DNA from: Curtobacterium sp. GC_Cur_3
Lineage (GTDB): Bacteria > Actinomycetota > Actinomycetes > Actinomycetales > Microbacteriaceae
Reading direction: 5' to 3'
Length of the DNA stretch: 64,000 bases
Assembly (NCBI RefSeq): GCF_026544205.1
Contig: NZ_JALNUI010000002.1
Coordinates: 124,001-188,000 of the forward strand
The notes beneath the pieces are model-generated. The model was not told the DNA's origin, searched no databases, and worked only from the letters and a program-made list of their open reading frames with translations. Every line of letters begins with the position of its first letter. Within the stretch, counting starts at the first letter, position 1. This document shows, one piece after another, positions 31,698 to 41,475 of this stretch. Made by a program: the position numbers and the translations under genes.

Positions 31698-33164
31698 TCA
31701 GCCGGCGGTCGGGGGCGCCAGGGGGATCGCGTCGCTCGTCGAGCGGAGCGACTCCTGGCGCAGTTCGAGCTGCGAGACCGCCAGCGCGGCCAGGTCGCGC
31801 AGGTTCGCCAGGTCGGCTTCGGTCGCCGTGCGCGGACGGGTGTCGAGCACGGCGAGGGTGCCGATCGCGGTGCCGTCGTGGCGGACGAGCGGCACGCTGA
31901 CGTAGAACCGGATGCCGAGCGGCCCGGTGACGAGCGGGCTCTTCCGCATCTCCGGGTGCGTCGAGCCGTCGGGGATCACCACGGGGACGGGGACCGGGGC
32001 GAAGCCGTTCCGGAAGCTGATGTGCCGTGCGGACTCGTCGATGCCCTCGGCCAGGTACGACTGCGACCACTCGCGGTCCTGGTCGAGCACCTCGACCAGG
32101 GCGATCGGGGCGTCGAACAGGCGTGCCGCCATGGCCGTCGTCCGCTGCAGGGCCTCTTCGGGCAGCAGGTCGAGCGTTGCCGGGTGCGACCCCGTGGCGG
32201 GGCGCTGGCCGGTGGCGGTGCGCGTGCCGGTGCTCGGTCCCGTGCTGCGCGTCCTGTCCGTCTCCGTCGCGGCGGCCGCAGTGCCGGGCGCATCCGTGTC
32301 GACCACGCGGTCCTCGGCCGTGGTGTCCGCGATGACGACGTCGCGGAGCAGGCCGACCAGGGCCTCCCCGATCGGTCGCTGCGCCGGGTCCCTGGCCGTC
32401 ATCGCAGTCAGGGCACGCTGCCAGTGCGTCGGCAGCGGGTCCGGCACGACGGGGTCGCGCGACAGGCGGGCGACCGCGGACTCGACGAGCGACCCGGGGA
32501 ACTCCCGCCGGCGGGTGAAGCACTGCAGCAGCACCAGGCCGAGGGAGTAGACGTCGCTCGCCGGGCCGACGTCGCCACCGCGGGCCTGCTCCGGGCTGAG
32601 GTAGGCGGCCGTCCCCGTCGTCACGCCGTCGGCGGTGAGCCGTTCGACGCCGTCGGCCAGCGCGATGCCGAAGTCCGTCAGCCGAGCCCGGGCGCGGTCC
32701 GCCCGGTTGCCGTAGTCCACGAGCAGGATGTTCGACGGCTTGATGTCACGGTGCACGACGCCGCGGTCGTGGATGTAGTGGAGCGCCTCGGCCATGTCGT
32801 AGCCGACCTCGGCGATGTGCCGCGAGGCCAGTGGCCCGAGCCCCAGGCGCTCCTCGAGGTCCTGCCCGTGCACGAGCGCCATCACGATGAACCGCTGCGG
32901 GGTCCCGTGCTCGTCCTCGACCACGCCGGCGTCGAGCAGGCTGACCAGGTTGTGGTGGTCGAGCGACGCCAGGACGCCCTGTTCGGCCTCCTGTCGCGCG
33001 ATGTCCACGAGGCCCGGGTGGAAGACCTTCACGGCGACGGGCCGGTCGAGGCTCTCGTCGAGTGCGTCGTACACGACCGACATCCCGCCTCGGCCGATGA
33101 CCGTCCGGAGCCGGTAGCGCCCGCCGAGGAGCGCGTGTGGCGCCTCCTGACCTTCCGTCATCAT
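31698..33164 (-). CDS. Ser/Thr protein kinase with C-terminal GAF domain
   Basis: The 488-residue protein has a Hanks-type kinase domain (about 17-280): GRGGMSVVY, Lys46 in VAVKVF, HRDIKPSN with Asp140, and DFG (164-166). A Thr/Ala-rich linker leads to a GAF domain (about 345-475: ALQRTTAMAARLFDAPIALV, FYVSVPLVRHDGTAIGTLAV). There is no membrane segment, unlike PknB-type kinases, so it is cytosolic and may sense a small ligand or redox state through GAF. ATG 33164 and ATG 33161 are adjacent alternatives. Confidence 0.9.
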   Translation of the reverse strand: MMTEGQEAPHALLGGRYRLRTVIGRGGMSVVYDALDESLDRPVAVKVFHPGLVDIARQEAEQGVLASLDHHNLVSLLDAGVVEDEHGTPQRFIVMALVHGQDLEERLGLGPLASRHIAEVGYDMAEALHYIHDRGVVHRDIKPSNILLVDYGNRADRARARLTDFGIALADGVERLTADGVTTGTAAYLSPEQARGGDVGPASDVYSLGLVLLQCFTRRREFPGSLVESAVARLSRDPVVPDPLPTHWQRALTAMTARDPAQRPIGEALVGLLRDVVIADTTAEDRVVDTDAPGTAAAATETDRTRSTGPSTGTRTATGQRPATGSHPATLDLLPEEALQRTTAMAARLFDAPIALVEVLDQDREWSQSYLAEGIDESARHISFRNGFAPVPVPVVIPDGSTHPEMRKSPLVTGPLGIRFYVSVPLVRHDGTAIGTLAVLDTRPRTATEADLANLRDLAALAVSQLELRQESLRSTSDAIPLAPPTAG

Positions 33165-33240
33165 GCGTGCATCATCCCATCCGGCCGCGTCCCGGGCGCG
33201 CGTTGATCCCGAGCACGCGCTGCTCCGGTCGCGCTGCTCG

Positions 33241-33310
33241 GCAAGACACCGGTGTTCCGTCGTCGCGCCGCGACCTTCCGCGGCGCGACCCGTGAACACC
33301 GGTGTCTTGC
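33241..33310. repeat. Family B nested palindrome
   Basis: The outer arms GCAAGACACCGGTGTTC and GAACACCGGTGTCTTGC enclose inner arms GTCGCGCCGCG (33262-33272) and CGCGGCGCGAC (33279-33289). Both pairs share the centre 33275.5, and each outer arm contains the self-palindrome ACACCGGTGT. It lies in the divergent region between the kinase and pcp. A sister copy lies at 57265-57334. Confidence 0.8.
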
Positions 33311-33336
33311 GTCGGAACAGCCGTAGCATCGGGGAC

Positions 33337-33987
33337 GTGGCCACCAGTGCAGCACCCGTCGTCCTCCTGACCGCGTTCGAGCCGTTCGGCGGTGCCGAGC
33401 GGAACCCCTCGTGGGACGCCGTCCAGGCGGTCGCCGCGGCGTGGGACGGCCCCGGCACCGTCGTCGTGGAGCAGCTCCCCGTCGTCTTCGCCGAGGTCCG
33501 AGCGGCCCTCGTCGCCGCGATCACCGAGCACCGCCCCGACCTGGTCATCGCGACCGGTGTCGCCGAGGGGCGCGATGCCGTCACCCCCGAGCGCGTCGCG
33601 GTCAACGTCGACGACGCCCGCATCCCGGACAACTCGGGCGCGCAGCCGATCGACGAGCCCATCGACCAGCGCGGACCGGACGGGTTCCTGACGACGCTGC
33701 CGATCAAGCGCATCGTCCGTGCCGCGACCGAGGCCGGCGTCGCCGCGTCCGTGTCGAACACGGCGGGCACGTTCACCTGCAACCACGCCTTCTACGAGCT
33801 GATGTCGATCGCGGCGAACGAGTCCTTCCGCGCCGGGTTCGTGCACGTCCCCGCGACGCCCGAGTCGGCGACCGGGGACGTCCCGACGCTGCCGCTCGAG
33901 GACATCGTCACGGCGCTCCAGGTCGCCGTCCGGGAGAGCCTCGACCCCGCGGCCGACGCGGTGCTGGTCGGCGGCGCCGAGCACTAG
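33337..33987 (+). CDS. pcp: pyroglutamyl-peptidase I
   Basis: The 216-residue cysteine peptidase (family C15) removes N-terminal pyroglutamate. LLTAFEPFGGAERNPSW is the N-terminal signature; the triad is Glu85 (TPERVAVN), Cys148 (NTAGTFTCNHAFY) and His170 (FVHVP). GTG 33337 is the only suitable start. A second, about 92% identical copy of its last about 90 bases lies at 43852-43944, beyond the foreign block, so the original neighbour after pcp was the AAA ATPase now at 43986. Confidence 0.93.
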   Translation: MATSAAPVVLLTAFEPFGGAERNPSWDAVQAVAAAWDGPGTVVVEQLPVVFAEVRAALVAAITEHRPDLVIATGVAEGRDAVTPERVAVNVDDARIPDNSGAQPIDEPIDQRGPDGFLTTLPIKRIVRAATEAGVAASVSNTAGTFTCNHAFYELMSIAANESFRAGFVHVPATPESATGDVPTLPLEDIVTALQVAVRESLDPAADAVLVGGAEH

Positions 33988-34193
33988 TCGTGCGGGCGCG
34001 CCCGTCGCCGGGCCGCAGCAGGGCGCGAAGCCGGAGTGCGGCCGGTCGAGCGCTACGTTCGAGGCGCTCGCCGTCGACCAGGACCTCGCGACGGCTTTCC
34101 TGATCCGGGCCCGCGCGCTCATGATCGAGCGGAGCGGGCTGCGCGGCCAGATGCTCTCGTTCGTCCGGTCGCAGGACGGCCGGACGTCATTGC
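33988..34193 (+). pseudogene. internal fragment of AAA ATPase gene (left copy)
   Basis: From about 33997 to 34193 the sequence matches 44392-44580, the middle of the AAA ATPase gene, at roughly 88-90% by eye (GTCGACCAGGACCTCGCGAC is shared). About 445 bases of the ATPase 5' part are missing between the pcp stop and this fragment. It has no start and runs into the conjugation gene, so it is a remnant marking the left end of the foreign block. Confidence 0.85.
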
Positions 34194-34205: not shown

Positions 34206-35324
34206 GTGCTCGAAGCGCCCGGCGCAGCCGTGATGACCTCGAACAACGTCGAGGACCTCACCACGGCGCAAGAGCTCGCGGCGATCTTCGAGGCCAGCAC
34301 CAAGGACGCGGACAGCAAGAGCGACGCGCAGTTCGACTCGCAGGGCCGCGACCTGTTCGCCTACGCCCTCCTCGCCGCGAAGCTCGACGGGATGGGGCTC
34401 GGGCAGGTCTACAGCTGGATCACGAAGCAGGAGCACGCGGAGATCCGCGCGATCATGCAGAAGCATGGCCAGACCGGCCCGGCATCGGCACTGGTTGGCC
34501 TGCAGGGACAGCCGGACAAGACGCGGGGCAGCGTCTACGCCACCGCGCAGCGGATGGCGTCCGCGATCGCCAACGACACGCTGCTGACGTGGACGAGTGC
34601 GCCCGGAGTGCGGAAGTTCAACGCGGAATCGTTCGTCCGCGGCACGGACACCGCAGTGCTGATCTCCCGGAACGGTCCCGGATCGGGCGGCGCGTTCGTC
34701 GCAGCGCTGGTGCGGTCGATCTCCCGCGCCGGAGAGCGGGCGGCGGCCGCGGACGGTGGCCGCATCACGACGCCCGTGGTGTTCGAACTCGACGAGGTCG
34801 CAAACATCGTCCGGTGGCCCGAGCTGCCCGACGTGGTCTCGTTCTACGGCTCGATGGGCCTGATCCTCTGCATGTACTTCCAGTCGTGGGGGCAGATCGT
34901 CCGAGTGTTCGGCAACGAGGGTGCCGACACCCTGTGGAGCGCATCGTCGATCCGTGTCTACGGCGGCGGGGAATCGACGCAGTCGCCGTTCCTCAAGCGG
35001 TTCTCCGAGAGCATCGGCAACTACGACGAGTGGACCACCAACACGTCGTCAGGCCGCAACGGGTCGACACGATCGCGGGTGTCGAAGTCGAAGCCGATCC
35101 TTCAGCCCGACGTGCTGGCGCACCTGCCGAAATGGCGGGCAGTGTTCGACGGGAGCGACGTCGGGCCGGTGCTGATCCGCACCCGGCCGTGGTTCCTGGA
35201 CAACGTGCTCAAGACCATGATCGAGGGCCGAGAAGTCAAGAACGGGAAGATCGTCAAGGAGAAGAAGACGGCCGCAAAACGGCCGTCGACAGCGGAAGGC
35301 ACCGGCCGTGTCGAGCCCGTTTGA
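34206..35324 (+). pseudogene. conjugative coupling protein (TraG/VirD4-like), 5'-truncated
   Basis: The 372-residue frame begins abruptly at VLEAPGAAVMTSNNVEDL, the segment that follows the Walker A region in VirD4/TraD-type coupling ATPases; the nucleotide-binding P-loop and membrane part are absent. The rest keeps VVFELDEVANIVRWPELP (Walker B region) and YFQSWGQIVRVFG (TraM-recognition/TraG-D C-terminal domain). In a complete plasmid it would link relaxase-bound DNA to the secretion channel. Here it is cut by the junction at about 34193, so it is very likely non-functional. Confidence 0.82.
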
Positions 35325-38180: not shown

Positions 38181-38687
38181 CTACGACGCCTGCCGAAGCG
38201 TAACCAGGGTTCCACCGTGGGAGGGCAAGTCAATTACTGCCTTCCGAGATACAGGACGCAGAACCGAGTTGCCACCTAGACGAGTAACTGTGACGCGTAC
38301 TTTCTCGGACGGATTGGCACTCAACCATCCGTGCGAGGTTGGCCTGAAGCCCTGCTTTTTCAGCGACTTTTCTACCTCGCTAACGACGTCACCGTCCAAC
38401 AAAACGCGGTAGGTGACTTCCGGGCCCTCCACGACCGTGTCAGCACCATAGTGCTCCTCAAATAGCACTACATGACCCTTGTGGTCGGTCTTTAAACTGA
38501 GACGCTGAGCGACCCCATCCACTACCGCGTACGTGTCCGCACTTACGGAACACCCGCTCAGTGCAGGTAGCGCCACGCCCGCAAAAACCAAGGCTGATAC
38601 GAGTTGGATGGTGAATCGCTTTCCTCTAGTAGAGGTAGTAAGTCGCCCCCGACGGGAAGGTGTTAGCGATGACAGAAACAGATCCAC
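38181..38687 (-). CDS. lipoprotein, unknown function
   Basis: The 168-residue protein has a long basic N-terminus, a hydrophobic stretch (IQLVSALVFAGVALPALSGC) with lipobox LSGC, so it is probably lipid-anchored outside the membrane. The mature part is a small beta-rich domain (YAVVDGVAQRLSLKTDHKGH, VTYRVLLDGDVVSEVEKSL). The only in-frame start is ATG 38687, 62 bases inside the end of the preceding gene, so translation is likely coupled to the cutinase-like protein. I know no family for it. It lies within the AT-richer cargo. Confidence 0.7.
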   Translation of the reverse strand: MDLFLSSLTPSRRGRLTTSTRGKRFTIQLVSALVFAGVALPALSGCSVSADTYAVVDGVAQRLSLKTDHKGHVVLFEEHYGADTVVEGPEVTYRVLLDGDVVSEVEKSLKKQGFRPTSHGWLSANPSEKVRVTVTRLGGNSVLRPVSRKAVIDLPSHGGTLVTLRQAS

Positions 38688-41475
38688 TCACCCCCTCGAG
38701 ATGGCTGATGGTAGTAGCGTCAATTGAGAGCGGAACCTCTGAATCCATCCAGGCAAGATCCAAATCCCCTCCGTCCACACTCACGATGTCAAGCAGGGAA
38801 GAGTCGGTGGTCCTCTCGAAGGTCAGATTTGAGAGAGTTGCATTTTTCACAAAAAGGGTTATGTGGCCACCAATTGCCGTGCTGAGATCATGAAGGTTGA
38901 GGCTGTCGCATGCCGTCGCATCATAAACGTGGTCGGACTCGTCACTGAGTTTCTGCTGAACCTCATTCGTACTTACATTGCATGTCCCGAAGGCCTGCAA
39001 CCACGGCTCTGCGTTGGTCGGCACTGCGCGAGGCGTCTGGGCGGGGATCGCGGGCAGCGTGACTGATGGTGAATGCACGTGGATCGAATTCCCGGTCAAT
39101 GGCGAACTATTGCCGTAGTCGTCGACGGACCAGGCGGTTCCTGCAGCGTAGACACCGGAACGGACTCGGACAGACTCGTGGAGCTTGACGTCTCCGTTTG
39201 CACGAATTACCCCCTGGATTGAAGTGTCGTAAGAGACGTCAATGTTGCCGCCAGCAATGACGTCTCCCTGGATCCTGCAGCCGGGCATGATGATCACGTC
39301 GCCGCTTGCGATAATGTCGCCACTATATTGACCATTCGACCCACAAACGAATTTACCGTCAACGAGTACATCTGCATTTCGCCGCAGTGCCGCCCGATCG
39401 CCGGTTTCAAGGTCGGAGCGCGATATGATTGCGCTGTCGGGTTCCGCGGGTCCAGCCGAAACAGACGAAACGCTCGAACTTCCGGAGTGATTAAAGGAGC
39501 GCACCCCGAAGGATACCGACTCGCCATACTCGATACCACTCATCGTCCAGCTGATTTCCTCAGCGCTTATGTCCGATGCGAAGCTGTCGAGTACGTCGCC
39601 CTCAGAACTCACCACTTGGTAACCGATTGCTCCGGCGACCTTGGCCCAGGTTGCCGTCACTTCATGGCGCGATGCGACAACGGCAACGTCTGGCGTATTG
39701 GGAGATGTTCCGTTACTCGCGGCGGTCACCGTGATGCGTGCGTTTGACACACTCGCGAACGAATCCGGCCGACGAACGGTTACTGAGACAGTGTGGTCTC
39801 CTCCGGAGCTCAGTTGCGCTTTCACGGTTTGGCCATCATCCCTAAGCGCTGAGCCGTCGACGGACCACTCGAAGGTGGTGCCCGGTGCGTATGCCACATC
39901 AGAAGAAGCAGTGGCGGTGAATTCCTGACCCACTTCGACCGCACCAGGAAGACCAATCGCAGTTTGGCCTCCACGTACCCCCTTTGAAGTCAACTCCCCT
40001 AAGGCGCTGGCGCCCTCTGCGAAGTCGCCACCTGTCTGTCGTGCAAAGTCCTCGTTATACGGATCGAGCGTGGTCGCCAGACGCGCAGACTGTGTTTCGG
40101 CGGGCTTGTTCGACAGGGTTCCCGAAACTATGGTCACGTGATGCTCTTTTGCTGCCGCGACCAATTCATCACGAGACGGTACTTCACCGTACTCTTCGGA
40201 CGTCTGGTGCGTAGATTCGAGCTCTTGTTCTGACAGCAGCACGAGCGTCATGGGCCTCGCCGTCGCCGGATGTCCCTGAATATACGACATCATTTCTTGG
40301 CTAAGACGGGCGGTACTACTAGGGAGTGCCCATCCGTAGGGCGCTCCATAACCCGGATCCAGCCAGTTGTCGTACTCGTTGTCGAACGGGTTGGCTGTGC
40401 AGGTCTCACCTTCCGACTTAACCCCGTCGGATATCGGCGGGAGCCCGTAATATTGCTGATCGTATGGCGAGTTTTTGGTGCCGAGAAGCAAGTTACGCGA
40501 AAAACAGGCATTAGGGTTAGAGGCCAAGATTGTGTCAATTGATTCGGAGAGTTGCTCCTTGGCAAGCGGAAGGTCATCCGCAACGTCAGCCACATTCACG
40601 AAGTATCCAACGTCGGCAGACGGCAGGGTTTCGAAGGGATTGACGCCGGGCATTCCGACCTCGTTCGCAATCGCCGCGGCCGCTCGACGAGCTTCATCGC
40701 CGTACGTCAGGTGAGGAGAGAAAAAGTCTTTGCCGGATTCCTTCGCCGCGTTGATCAGGAAGGGTATATCCCGATATTGTATCTCGACATTGCCTATTCT
40801 CATCGTCGCTACCGAGTTACAGATCGGGTCCGCGTAATGGCATTCAGAAATGGCGTTTTGTACCCCGACGGTAGACCAATCATCATGCTTGCCAAACACG
40901 CCAGAGTGATTCACGTCATATGTGCCAGTGTCTTCCGCGGACGCCGAGTTGAACTGCGGGTCTCCGAAAAAGAATGCGCCAATGACATTCGTCAGATCAC
41001 TAGAGTTAGCCAGCTTCATCCCTGCCTGGATAGCCATGGCGCCCTGCGAATAACCCGCAAGGATGACTAAGGTGTTGGGGCACTGTTGCTTGAGTTGGCG
41101 TATACTTTCAACAGTAGACTGCCCGCCTGCTGCGACAGAGTTGTCGAATGTTTTCGTTATATGAAGCAGCTTGCCGATCGCATTGATGCTGTCGGTCCCC
41201 TGAATGCTAACGGCTGGGTAATCTACACCTTGGGCAGAAATGGTTCGGCCTGTACGTCCGGTGATGCTGACCAGTTCGGAGTAGACAGCAGATAAGGGCG
41301 CACCTAGGCCGTAATTGTCTGGTTCTTCTGCTTCTGGCGGCTCGCCGGACCCTCGGGCGCCCATAAACGCGTAGTCCGAGCATGCTGCCGCTGCCGCGGG
41401 TGCTGAGAGCCCGATGGCGCCAGCGGCAAGCGTTACGGTGGTGATCGAAGCCAACAAAACAGTTGCTAGGCGCAT
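38626..41475 (-). CDS. secreted multi-domain cutinase-like protein
   Basis: This 949-residue protein has a signal peptide (1-30) and then several modules. Cutinase/serine esterase (31-275): GARGSGE, nucleophile Ser143 in GYSQGA, Asp216 between Cys212 and Cys219 (CHYADPIC), His255 in SPHLTYG; all triad and disulfide residues are present. A Rossmann-like part (about 285-500) resembles a vWA domain whose metal motif is lost (YFVNVADVADDL, MTLVLLSE, FARQTGGDF). Then a PKD-like (510-586) and an FN3-like (592-677) module, a bactofilin-like beta-helix (705-785: SGDIIASGDVIIM, QGDVIAGGNIDV) and a C-terminal domain. No membrane anchor or sorting signal is seen. RBS GGGGGAAAA precedes ATG 41475. Confidence 0.85.
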   Translation of the reverse strand: MRLATVLLASITTVTLAAGAIGLSAPAAAAACSDYAFMGARGSGEPPEAEEPDNYGLGAPLSAVYSELVSITGRTGRTISAQGVDYPAVSIQGTDSINAIGKLLHITKTFDNSVAAGGQSTVESIRQLKQQCPNTLVILAGYSQGAMAIQAGMKLANSSDLTNVIGAFFFGDPQFNSASAEDTGTYDVNHSGVFGKHDDWSTVGVQNAISECHYADPICNSVATMRIGNVEIQYRDIPFLINAAKESGKDFFSPHLTYGDEARRAAAAIANEVGMPGVNPFETLPSADVGYFVNVADVADDLPLAKEQLSESIDTILASNPNACFSRNLLLGTKNSPYDQQYYGLPPISDGVKSEGETCTANPFDNEYDNWLDPGYGAPYGWALPSSTARLSQEMMSYIQGHPATARPMTLVLLSEQELESTHQTSEEYGEVPSRDELVAAAKEHHVTIVSGTLSNKPAETQSARLATTLDPYNEDFARQTGGDFAEGASALGELTSKGVRGGQTAIGLPGAVEVGQEFTATASSDVAYAPGTTFEWSVDGSALRDDGQTVKAQLSSGGDHTVSVTVRRPDSFASVSNARITVTAASNGTSPNTPDVAVVASRHEVTATWAKVAGAIGYQVVSSEGDVLDSFASDISAEEISWTMSGIEYGESVSFGVRSFNHSGSSSVSSVSAGPAEPDSAIISRSDLETGDRAALRRNADVLVDGKFVCGSNGQYSGDIIASGDVIIMPGCRIQGDVIAGGNIDVSYDTSIQGVIRANGDVKLHESVRVRSGVYAAGTAWSVDDYGNSSPLTGNSIHVHSPSVTLPAIPAQTPRAVPTNAEPWLQAFGTCNVSTNEVQQKLSDESDHVYDATACDSLNLHDLSTAIGGHITLFVKNATLSNLTFERTTDSSLLDIVSVDGGDLDLAWMDSEVPLSIDATTISHLEGVSGSVSVIANTFPSGATYYLY

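Follow-up and report, generated by a model that had tools for sequence, protein, structure and literature searches.

The window analysed here is a stretch of 64,000 nucleotides from Curtobacterium sp. GC_Cur_3, lying on a 192-kb contig (C12) of a genome assembly of 3.76 Mb in 66 contigs. Within it, a single open reading frame (ORF) encodes a modular protein, predicted to be secreted, that begins with a cutinase, and a gene for a small lipoprotein lies downstream of it. The 949-residue ORF described in the original prediction, which was made from the sequence alone, is borne out, and its strand, which had not been given, is minus; the plus-strand frame over 38626-41475 contains many stops. The two genes and the parts of the larger one are as follows.

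38626..41475, minus strand: cutinase-family gene for a secreted modular protein, an ORF of 949 amino acids, stop codon included
41386..41475, minus strand: signal peptide-like region (residues 1-30), with a hydropathy maximum of 1.98 at the N-terminus
40651..41385, minus strand: cutinase domain, about residues 31-275, from Pfam, the predicted model, the triad S143/D216/H255 and the cysteines C32/C132 and C212/C219
39964..40650, minus strand: candidate degenerate vWA-derived region, about residues 276-504, from alignment with the vWA region of genome G915 and a position like that of the vWA in relatives; metal ion-dependent adhesion site (MIDAS) lost
39721..39963, minus strand: PKD-like immunoglobulin (Ig) module, about residues 505-585, Pfam score below cut-off; predicted local distance difference test (pLDDT) about 83-92 in most blocks of the model
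39448..39708, minus strand: FN3-like module, about residues 590-676, from an FN3con match (E=0.082), the model and matches to FN3 structures
38629..39408, minus strand: bactofilin-like beta-helix module, residues 690-949, from a weak Pfam match, HHalign and the model; about 60 residues shorter than that of a Leifsonia relative
38181..38687, minus strand: small lipoprotein gene, the partner gene, 168 codons from the first possible start, with a lipobox-like LSGC

The signal peptide-like region was called from a reading of the sequence and its hydropathy.

The best supported part of the protein is its N-terminal domain. The Cutinase family (PF01083) matches residues 31-225 with 70.7 bits (E=1.9e-19, cut-off 25.9), the triad S143, D216 and H255 is complete, with the nucleophile in GYSQG, the catalytic Asp in C-x3-D-x2-C and the His in PHLTYG, and C32, C132, C212 and C219 are all present. 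We take these cysteines to pair as C32/C132 and C212/C219, by analogy with solved cutinases. The predicted model matches 1cuv with a Z of 15.7 over 152 aligned residues (3.2 A), corresponding to the alpha/beta fold of cutinases, and the proposal of a cutinase with a complete triad and both cysteine pairs therefore holds. The solved cutinases of Fusarium solani (1cuv) and Trichoderma reesei (4psc) share this fold and these motifs, but they are single enzyme domains, whereas the window cutinase is one module of five and about 25% identical. From sequence and predicted fold, this domain would be an active cutinase (CE5-like) head and a putative esterase.

The remaining modules are supported to different degrees. 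In a whole-protein AlphaFold2 model with a mean pLDDT of 64, the cutinase core and residues 701-790 were confident and the two Ig-like modules good, so that structure prediction, proposed with the original prediction as a check, supports these parts and leaves most of residues 276-504 poor. The profile check gave a similarly divided answer: Cutinase passes, PKD and Bactofilin remain below their cut-offs, and vWA and FN3 have no Pfam match; moreover, no NCBIfam family above its own cut-off covers the whole chain. Cutinase and FN3 matches took up the rows shown in fold searches with the full model; the lack of a vWA or bactofilin row there does not exclude these two folds. The two Ig-like modules stand as originally described, with pLDDT mostly of 60-92 and Foldseek matches to many FN3 tandem structures. 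PKD scored 11.9 bits on the window protein (cut-off 23.5), relatives L048 and L049 pass PF00801, and Pfam FN3 had no match at E<=1.

For the C-terminal module, likeness to bactofilins is upheld and membership of PF04519 is not. The window protein scored 20.3 bits (cut-off 27.9), whereas the Leifsonia protein passes with 37.7 bits and the module of L055 is also above the cut-off. The C-terminal 260 residues match an eight-member alignment of related modules (HHalign E=2.9e-13). This module is about 310 residues long, the other seven members being 34-44% identical to the Leifsonia copy; Pfam calls Bactofilin for its first part only, and a second conserved half is not covered by PF04519. Residues 701-790 are modelled as regular short strands (pLDDT about 88-96), and the window module would have in common with bactofilins such a short-strand, beta-helix-like repeat. 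Bactofilins proper are intracellular cytoskeletal polymers; in contrast, the window module is C-terminal in a large enzyme and predicted to be exported, given the signal peptide-like segment and the exported family to which the enzyme belongs. That the missing part of the module survives as a remnant downstream was examined and ruled out (best full-sequence score 1.2 bits).

The region between the cutinase and the PKD-like module is the most difficult to assign. Pfam vWA had no match at E<=1, and at the MIDAS position the window protein has NVADVAD where Cellulomonas has DTTGSMS and Leifsonia DSSDAMS; the DxSxS-type motif is lost. In alignment with the G915 vWA, the region scored 56 against a shuffle mean of 11.3 (sd 5.7, maximum 45, 0/2000 as high), and BLASTP gave E=7e-4 for the G915 pair alone. 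The G915 region in turn aligns with the vWA regions of Leifsonia, G782, Cellulomonas and G618 at z 12.5-25.2. When the window region was aligned globally with each of 13 vWA regions of relatives, 12 of which match PF00092, z was 8.2 for G915 and between -0.7 and 3.4 for the other 12. The earlier description as a degenerate vWA is favoured by the G915 alignment, and not by most single vWA regions or by a profile of all 13. Because of the G915 alignment and the shared place between cutinase and PKD, we read residues 276-504 as a probable vWA derivative without its metal site. Since the MIDAS is gone and PF04519 stays below its cut-off in the window protein, 'bactofilin' and 'vWA' denote here likeness or ancestry and not family membership.

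The combination of modules had been put forward as one not known before. As a singleton, this architecture is ruled out by a protein of Leifsonia poae VKM Ac-1401 (G770), which has the same module order and aligns collinearly along the whole chain (BLAST matches at 2-297 and 473-814). Cutinase and Bactofilin pass the Pfam cut-offs on the Leifsonia protein, PKD (19.9 vs 23.5) and an integrin-type vWA (16.1 vs 24.8) stay below, and there is no FN3 among the matches; the vWA and Ig parts of this protein are recognised by alignment with proteins of Cellulomonas (22-713, 28%) and G618 (35-600, 32%). Among 398 genomes of the family, searched with a six-row alignment (A2) of 796 positions in which both the window's genome (G000) and G770 are rows, near-whole coverage was found only in these two (to position 796/796 and 769/796), and G618, G659 and G526, which are not rows, aligned to positions 689, 701 and 758 of 796.

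Beyond this pair, the cutinase-vWA-PKD core belongs to a group. Cutinase-vWA proteins were found at nine loci, namely in the window, Leifsonia, Cellulomonas triticagri, G1078, G618, G659, G526, G782 and G593, the last assigned by BLAST and by eye only. The G593 gene (L194:2465-4662) lies in two overlapping reading frames and is apparently split. These cutinase-vWA-PKD(-FN3) surface proteins have the cutinase head and the module order of the window protein, and most, unlike it, keep a recognisable vWA. The chain closes with the beta-helix module in the window and Leifsonia proteins, whereas a sortase-like signal or a membrane helix forms the C-terminus of six of the seven others, from Microbacteriaceae and Cellulomonas triticagri. 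A first, hand-picked set of 13 cutinase proteins consisted of these nine loci plus G621, G509, G575 and G670. In four of them (Cellulomonas, G1078, G659, G526), the C-terminal membrane helix comes with an LxxTG motif, in five (G618, G509, G575, G670 and, for the split G593 gene, its 3′ piece, which ends VTG-helix) it comes without, and the remaining four (window, Leifsonia, G782, G621) have neither. The C-terminus of the window protein has no sortase motif and a hydropathy maximum of 0.85. Substrates of class E sortases carry a LAXTG-type signal (PMC5148588), followed by a hydrophobic stretch and a basic tail; the Cellulomonas relative ends alike, in LAATG, a helix and a basic tail, whereas the window protein is without such a signal. 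In addition, L188 passes the NCBIfam model of LPXTG anchors, and L154, examined by eye only, seems to place an SGNH-like head in front of vWA-PKD-LPVTG. Enzyme heads thus look exchangeable across these architectures.

We met no Pfam or NCBIfam family name for the cutinase-vWA-PKD group, and a tree of 31 cutinase domains, with long branches, did not resolve the modular group. The cutinase + vWA architecture was not found in the searched literature, outside of which most subscription papers lie, so that this is no proof of absence; among the matches listed, the bactofilin and sortase/cutinase literature contained no such protein by title or abstract beginning. The enzyme itself is known, whereas neither its architecture nor its gene partner was found described in the searched literature, and the core may represent a little-noticed group of surface esterases. 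Elsewhere in the actinobacteria, cutinases are fused to RCC1-like repeats (L019, L020). The cutinases of G621 (L191) and G782 (L189) have long C-terminal parts that are alike by eye and match no named module, and both have a lipoprotein partner.

Coupling of a lipoprotein gene to the cutinase gene, also part of the original prediction, is corroborated by comparison. The partner gene overlaps the cutinase gene by 62 bp if its first possible start is used, and its relatives adjoin cutinase genes in Leifsonia, Cellulomonas, G621 and G782. The ectodomain of the window partner scored 58 against that of its counterpart in Leifsonia, the product of the gene immediately upstream of the cutinase gene (shuffle mean 27.4, sd 4.7, 0/1000), a pair that is weak alone because two of 6543 ORFs scored higher (63 and 59). 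A two-member profile matched the gene directly upstream of the cutinase in Cellulomonas (E=6.5e-6) and G621 (E=1e-4), and a four-member profile the gene upstream of the G782 cutinase (E=0.033, and E<1e-4 after the profile was widened). At these five of the 13 loci, the partner lies 27-100 bp from the cutinase frame or overlaps it, the distances in G621 and G782 being measured to the end of the open frame and not to the start codon. A lipobox-like cysteine is present in the Cellulomonas, G621 and G782 partners. A weak match at the G618 cutinase locus (E=0.07, opposite strand) was not counted. There was no partner at any of 78 loci, mostly of mycobacterial cutinases (L070-L147, best E=0.65), and a tie to the beta-helix module is not supported, with no match at L047, L050 and L148-L151 and one weak match (E=0.045) at L040. 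Lipoprotein and cutinase together form a defined pair of genes open to study, and among polyesterases displayed at the surface the modular cutinases are candidates.

The modules, the catalytic residues, the relatives, the gene pair and the plasmid-fragment setting described below come directly from computation. Taken as a whole, we suggest, with a probability of about 0.55, that the protein is a secreted, envelope-associated cutinase (CE5-like) ester hydrolase consisting of a head, a stalk and an attachment. The N-terminal cutinase would act as the catalytic head, a stalk or spacer may be formed by the degenerate vWA region together with the two Ig-like modules, and the beta-helix module and the small lipoprotein may keep the enzyme on the bacterial surface or within its matrix, in place of the sortase-like signal or membrane helix carried by most cutinase-vWA relatives. 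Activity, substrate, stalk role and attachment by beta-helix or lipoprotein are what we infer; the roles of stalk and attachment are suggested by position and by what relatives use instead.

Several results weigh against this reading. The whole protein occurs in one of 66 genomes of the genus, the window's own; in two others, G406 and G415, a cutinase forms the C-terminal part of different proteins. The model of the vWA region is not a confident one, with a pLDDT that is low in the whole model and 32 in a separate model from a three-row alignment, in which the first strand was misplaced, and the profile of 13 vWA regions from relatives gave no significant match to it. Attachment by the beta-helix is argued from position. 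The Leifsonia partner has a membrane helix only, without a lipobox cysteine, and partnered cutinases are not clustered on the 31-domain tree (5 changes, shuffled mean 4.8). Moreover, partner relatives occur in nine stretches of seven other genomes in which tblastn gave no cutinase, with G667, G148, G577 and G467 (the weakest) left out. Finally, the rule that the lipoprotein replaces a lost anchor was not upheld in general. In the first 13 loci, a C-terminal anchor was absent in four of the five partnered cutinases and in none of the eight unpartnered ones (Fisher p=0.007, a pattern noticed after looking). A further sample of 33 family cutinase loci (34 stretches, one without cutinase) had no credible partner, four weak matches being inside cutinase ORFs or in a distant frame, and 31 of the 33 cutinases had no anchor signature (one of the 31 cut by a contig end). 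Since none of these 33 matched the vWA profile, the rule may still hold for the vWA-bearing kind.

The same sample bears on a freely secreted esterase, the accessory modules of which would bind substrate or stabilise the enzyme, with the lipoprotein gene an unrelated neighbour. We regard this as possible but clearly less probable than attachment; the bare C-terminus of the window protein, without sortase signal or membrane helix, and the many unanchored, unpartnered family cutinases are in its favour, but lipoprotein relatives adjoin the cutinase gene in five loci of divergent sequence. Because gene order in the other four partnered loci is the reverse of that in the window, the pair is not one copied block. 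The partner profile matched in 13 of 279 family genomes, including the window's and G621. Because relatives occur both beside cutinases and without them, the partner is a member of a wider family of small membrane-attached proteins, some of which adjoin modular cutinases.

The likely targets of an envelope-associated cutinase would be the polyesters cutin and suberin of plant surfaces, or wall polymers that are acetylated. Curtobacterium, Leifsonia poae and Cellulomonas triticagri have plant links, and from these and from family knowledge a plant substrate, such as the cuticle or other polyesters of the original prediction, may be proposed. An acetylxylan esterase-like CE5 enzyme, acting on plant hemicellulose and not on polyesters, appears rather unlikely: the acetylxylan esterases 1bs9 and 1qoz are among both the sequence and the structure matches of the window protein, but cutinases lead the fold search (Z 15.7, against 13.8 for the highest-scoring acetylxylan esterase). 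This gap is small, and fold does not fix substrate.

The AT-richer DNA noted originally is confirmed, with GC (guanine plus cytosine) of 57-59% at the cutinase gene vs about 72% in most of the window. Low GC, the lost MIDAS, the short C-terminal module and the incomplete plasmid genes around are consistent with a decaying surface protein or adhesin, with its enzyme head out of use and its gene on the way out in a plasmid remnant. We consider such decay improbable, as 949 codons are open, all catalytic and cysteine residues are kept, and GC by codon position (0.59/0.49/0.61) is gene-like in order, with a low third position, and much like that of the Leifsonia gene.

The cutinase and lipoprotein genes lie in a fragment of a conjugative plasmid, for which the following features were found.

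33891..33995, plus strand: left 105-bp direct repeat, at the 3′ end of a pyroglutamyl peptidase gene (33163-33987)
34206..35324, plus strand: TraG/TraD-type coupling protein gene, 3′ part, from plasmid matches
35308..35898, plus strand: DUF4913 gene of the plasmid backbone, from plasmid matches
41611..43834, minus strand: MobF relaxase gene, 3′ part, apparently split over two frames, from plasmid matches
43843..43947, plus strand: right 105-bp direct repeat, 89.5% identical to the left

The repeats bound a 9.8-kb fragment that chromosomal-type genes adjoin, no integrase was found among the ORFs scanned between them, and in G447 the same site is uninterrupted (an empty site). The order TraG, DUF4913, MobF is that of conjugative plasmids of Clavibacter, Curtobacterium and Frondihabitans, to which, among the matches listed, TraG is 72-75% and MobF 69-77% identical in protein sequence, the best relaxase matches being Curtobacterium plasmids. 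Unlike these plasmids, the window retains only a fragment, with cutinase and lipoprotein in the cargo slot: the MobF part is about half of a 4.1-4.5 kb plasmid gene, and the first part of the coupling-protein gene is absent. Hence the mobile block of the original prediction is present as plasmid-fragment genes between repeats, and 'transferable' fits its past more than its present. Further DNA copies of TraG and MobF, 91-92% identical, on contigs C44 and C66 of the same genome suggest a resident related plasmid. No RNA was found in Rfam and tRNA scans of the window.

In Clavibacter pCM-NP1 and CMM84 unnamed2, nothing occupies the slot between DUF4913 and mobF; in a C. flaccumfaciens plasmid of pCfp1 type it contains a CPBP protease together with a hypothetical protein, in Frondihabitans a TetR regulator and an MFS transporter, and in the window the cutinase, the lipoprotein and some smaller ORFs. 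This slot (L198-L201) looks like an insertion hot spot in Microbacteriaceae conjugative plasmids. The position beside a relaxase gene, a weak Culp6 likeness (19.1 bits, cut-off 570) and many mycobacterial cutinases among the matches could point to an envelope-lipid hydrolase, LysB-like or Culp-like, aiding conjugation or contact with mycolic-acid bacteria. With no match in phages, no relative in viral contigs, the slot empty or occupied by unrelated genes in four plasmids and no conjugation gene among the five Leifsonia neighbours scanned (those of Cellulomonas were not scanned), we consider this very unlikely. The DNA in which the Leifsonia gene lies is likewise lower in GC (61%); upstream is a gene for a tyrosine integrase and downstream one for a transposase of an insertion sequence. 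A search of plasmids for the same architecture, which had been proposed, did not find it: the whole protein matched six records in the cutinase part only (five Rhodococcus, one Gordonia), and the non-cutinase part matched two Haloarcula records only.

A bolder and quite improbable extension of the envelope-associated reading would be a horizontally moving two-gene system, in which the lipoprotein docks the esterase and the beta-helix assembles outside the cell into enzyme-tipped filaments or a lattice, with heads (cutinase, SGNH) and tail anchors (sortase signal, membrane helix, beta-helix) swapped like cassettes. The bactofilin-like module of about 310 residues ends exported hydrolases in several actinobacterial families, and raises the question of whether bactofilin-type beta-helices assemble or anchor outside the cell. 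The same module closes proteins of the order NIDO-GDSL/SGNH-PKD, recognised by Pfam in L047 and L050 and by eye in L148 and L150, as well as the proteins L055, L149 and L151, the heads of which were not scanned. These four proteins with NIDO, GDSL/SGNH hydrolase, PKD and beta-helix module (L047, L050, L148, L150) form a second modular group. In addition, Bactofilin matches below the cut-off were seen in L051 and L054, and L051, L054 and L057 have N-termini that are pilin-like by eye, followed by bactofilin-like repeats, and are possibly pilus-linked.

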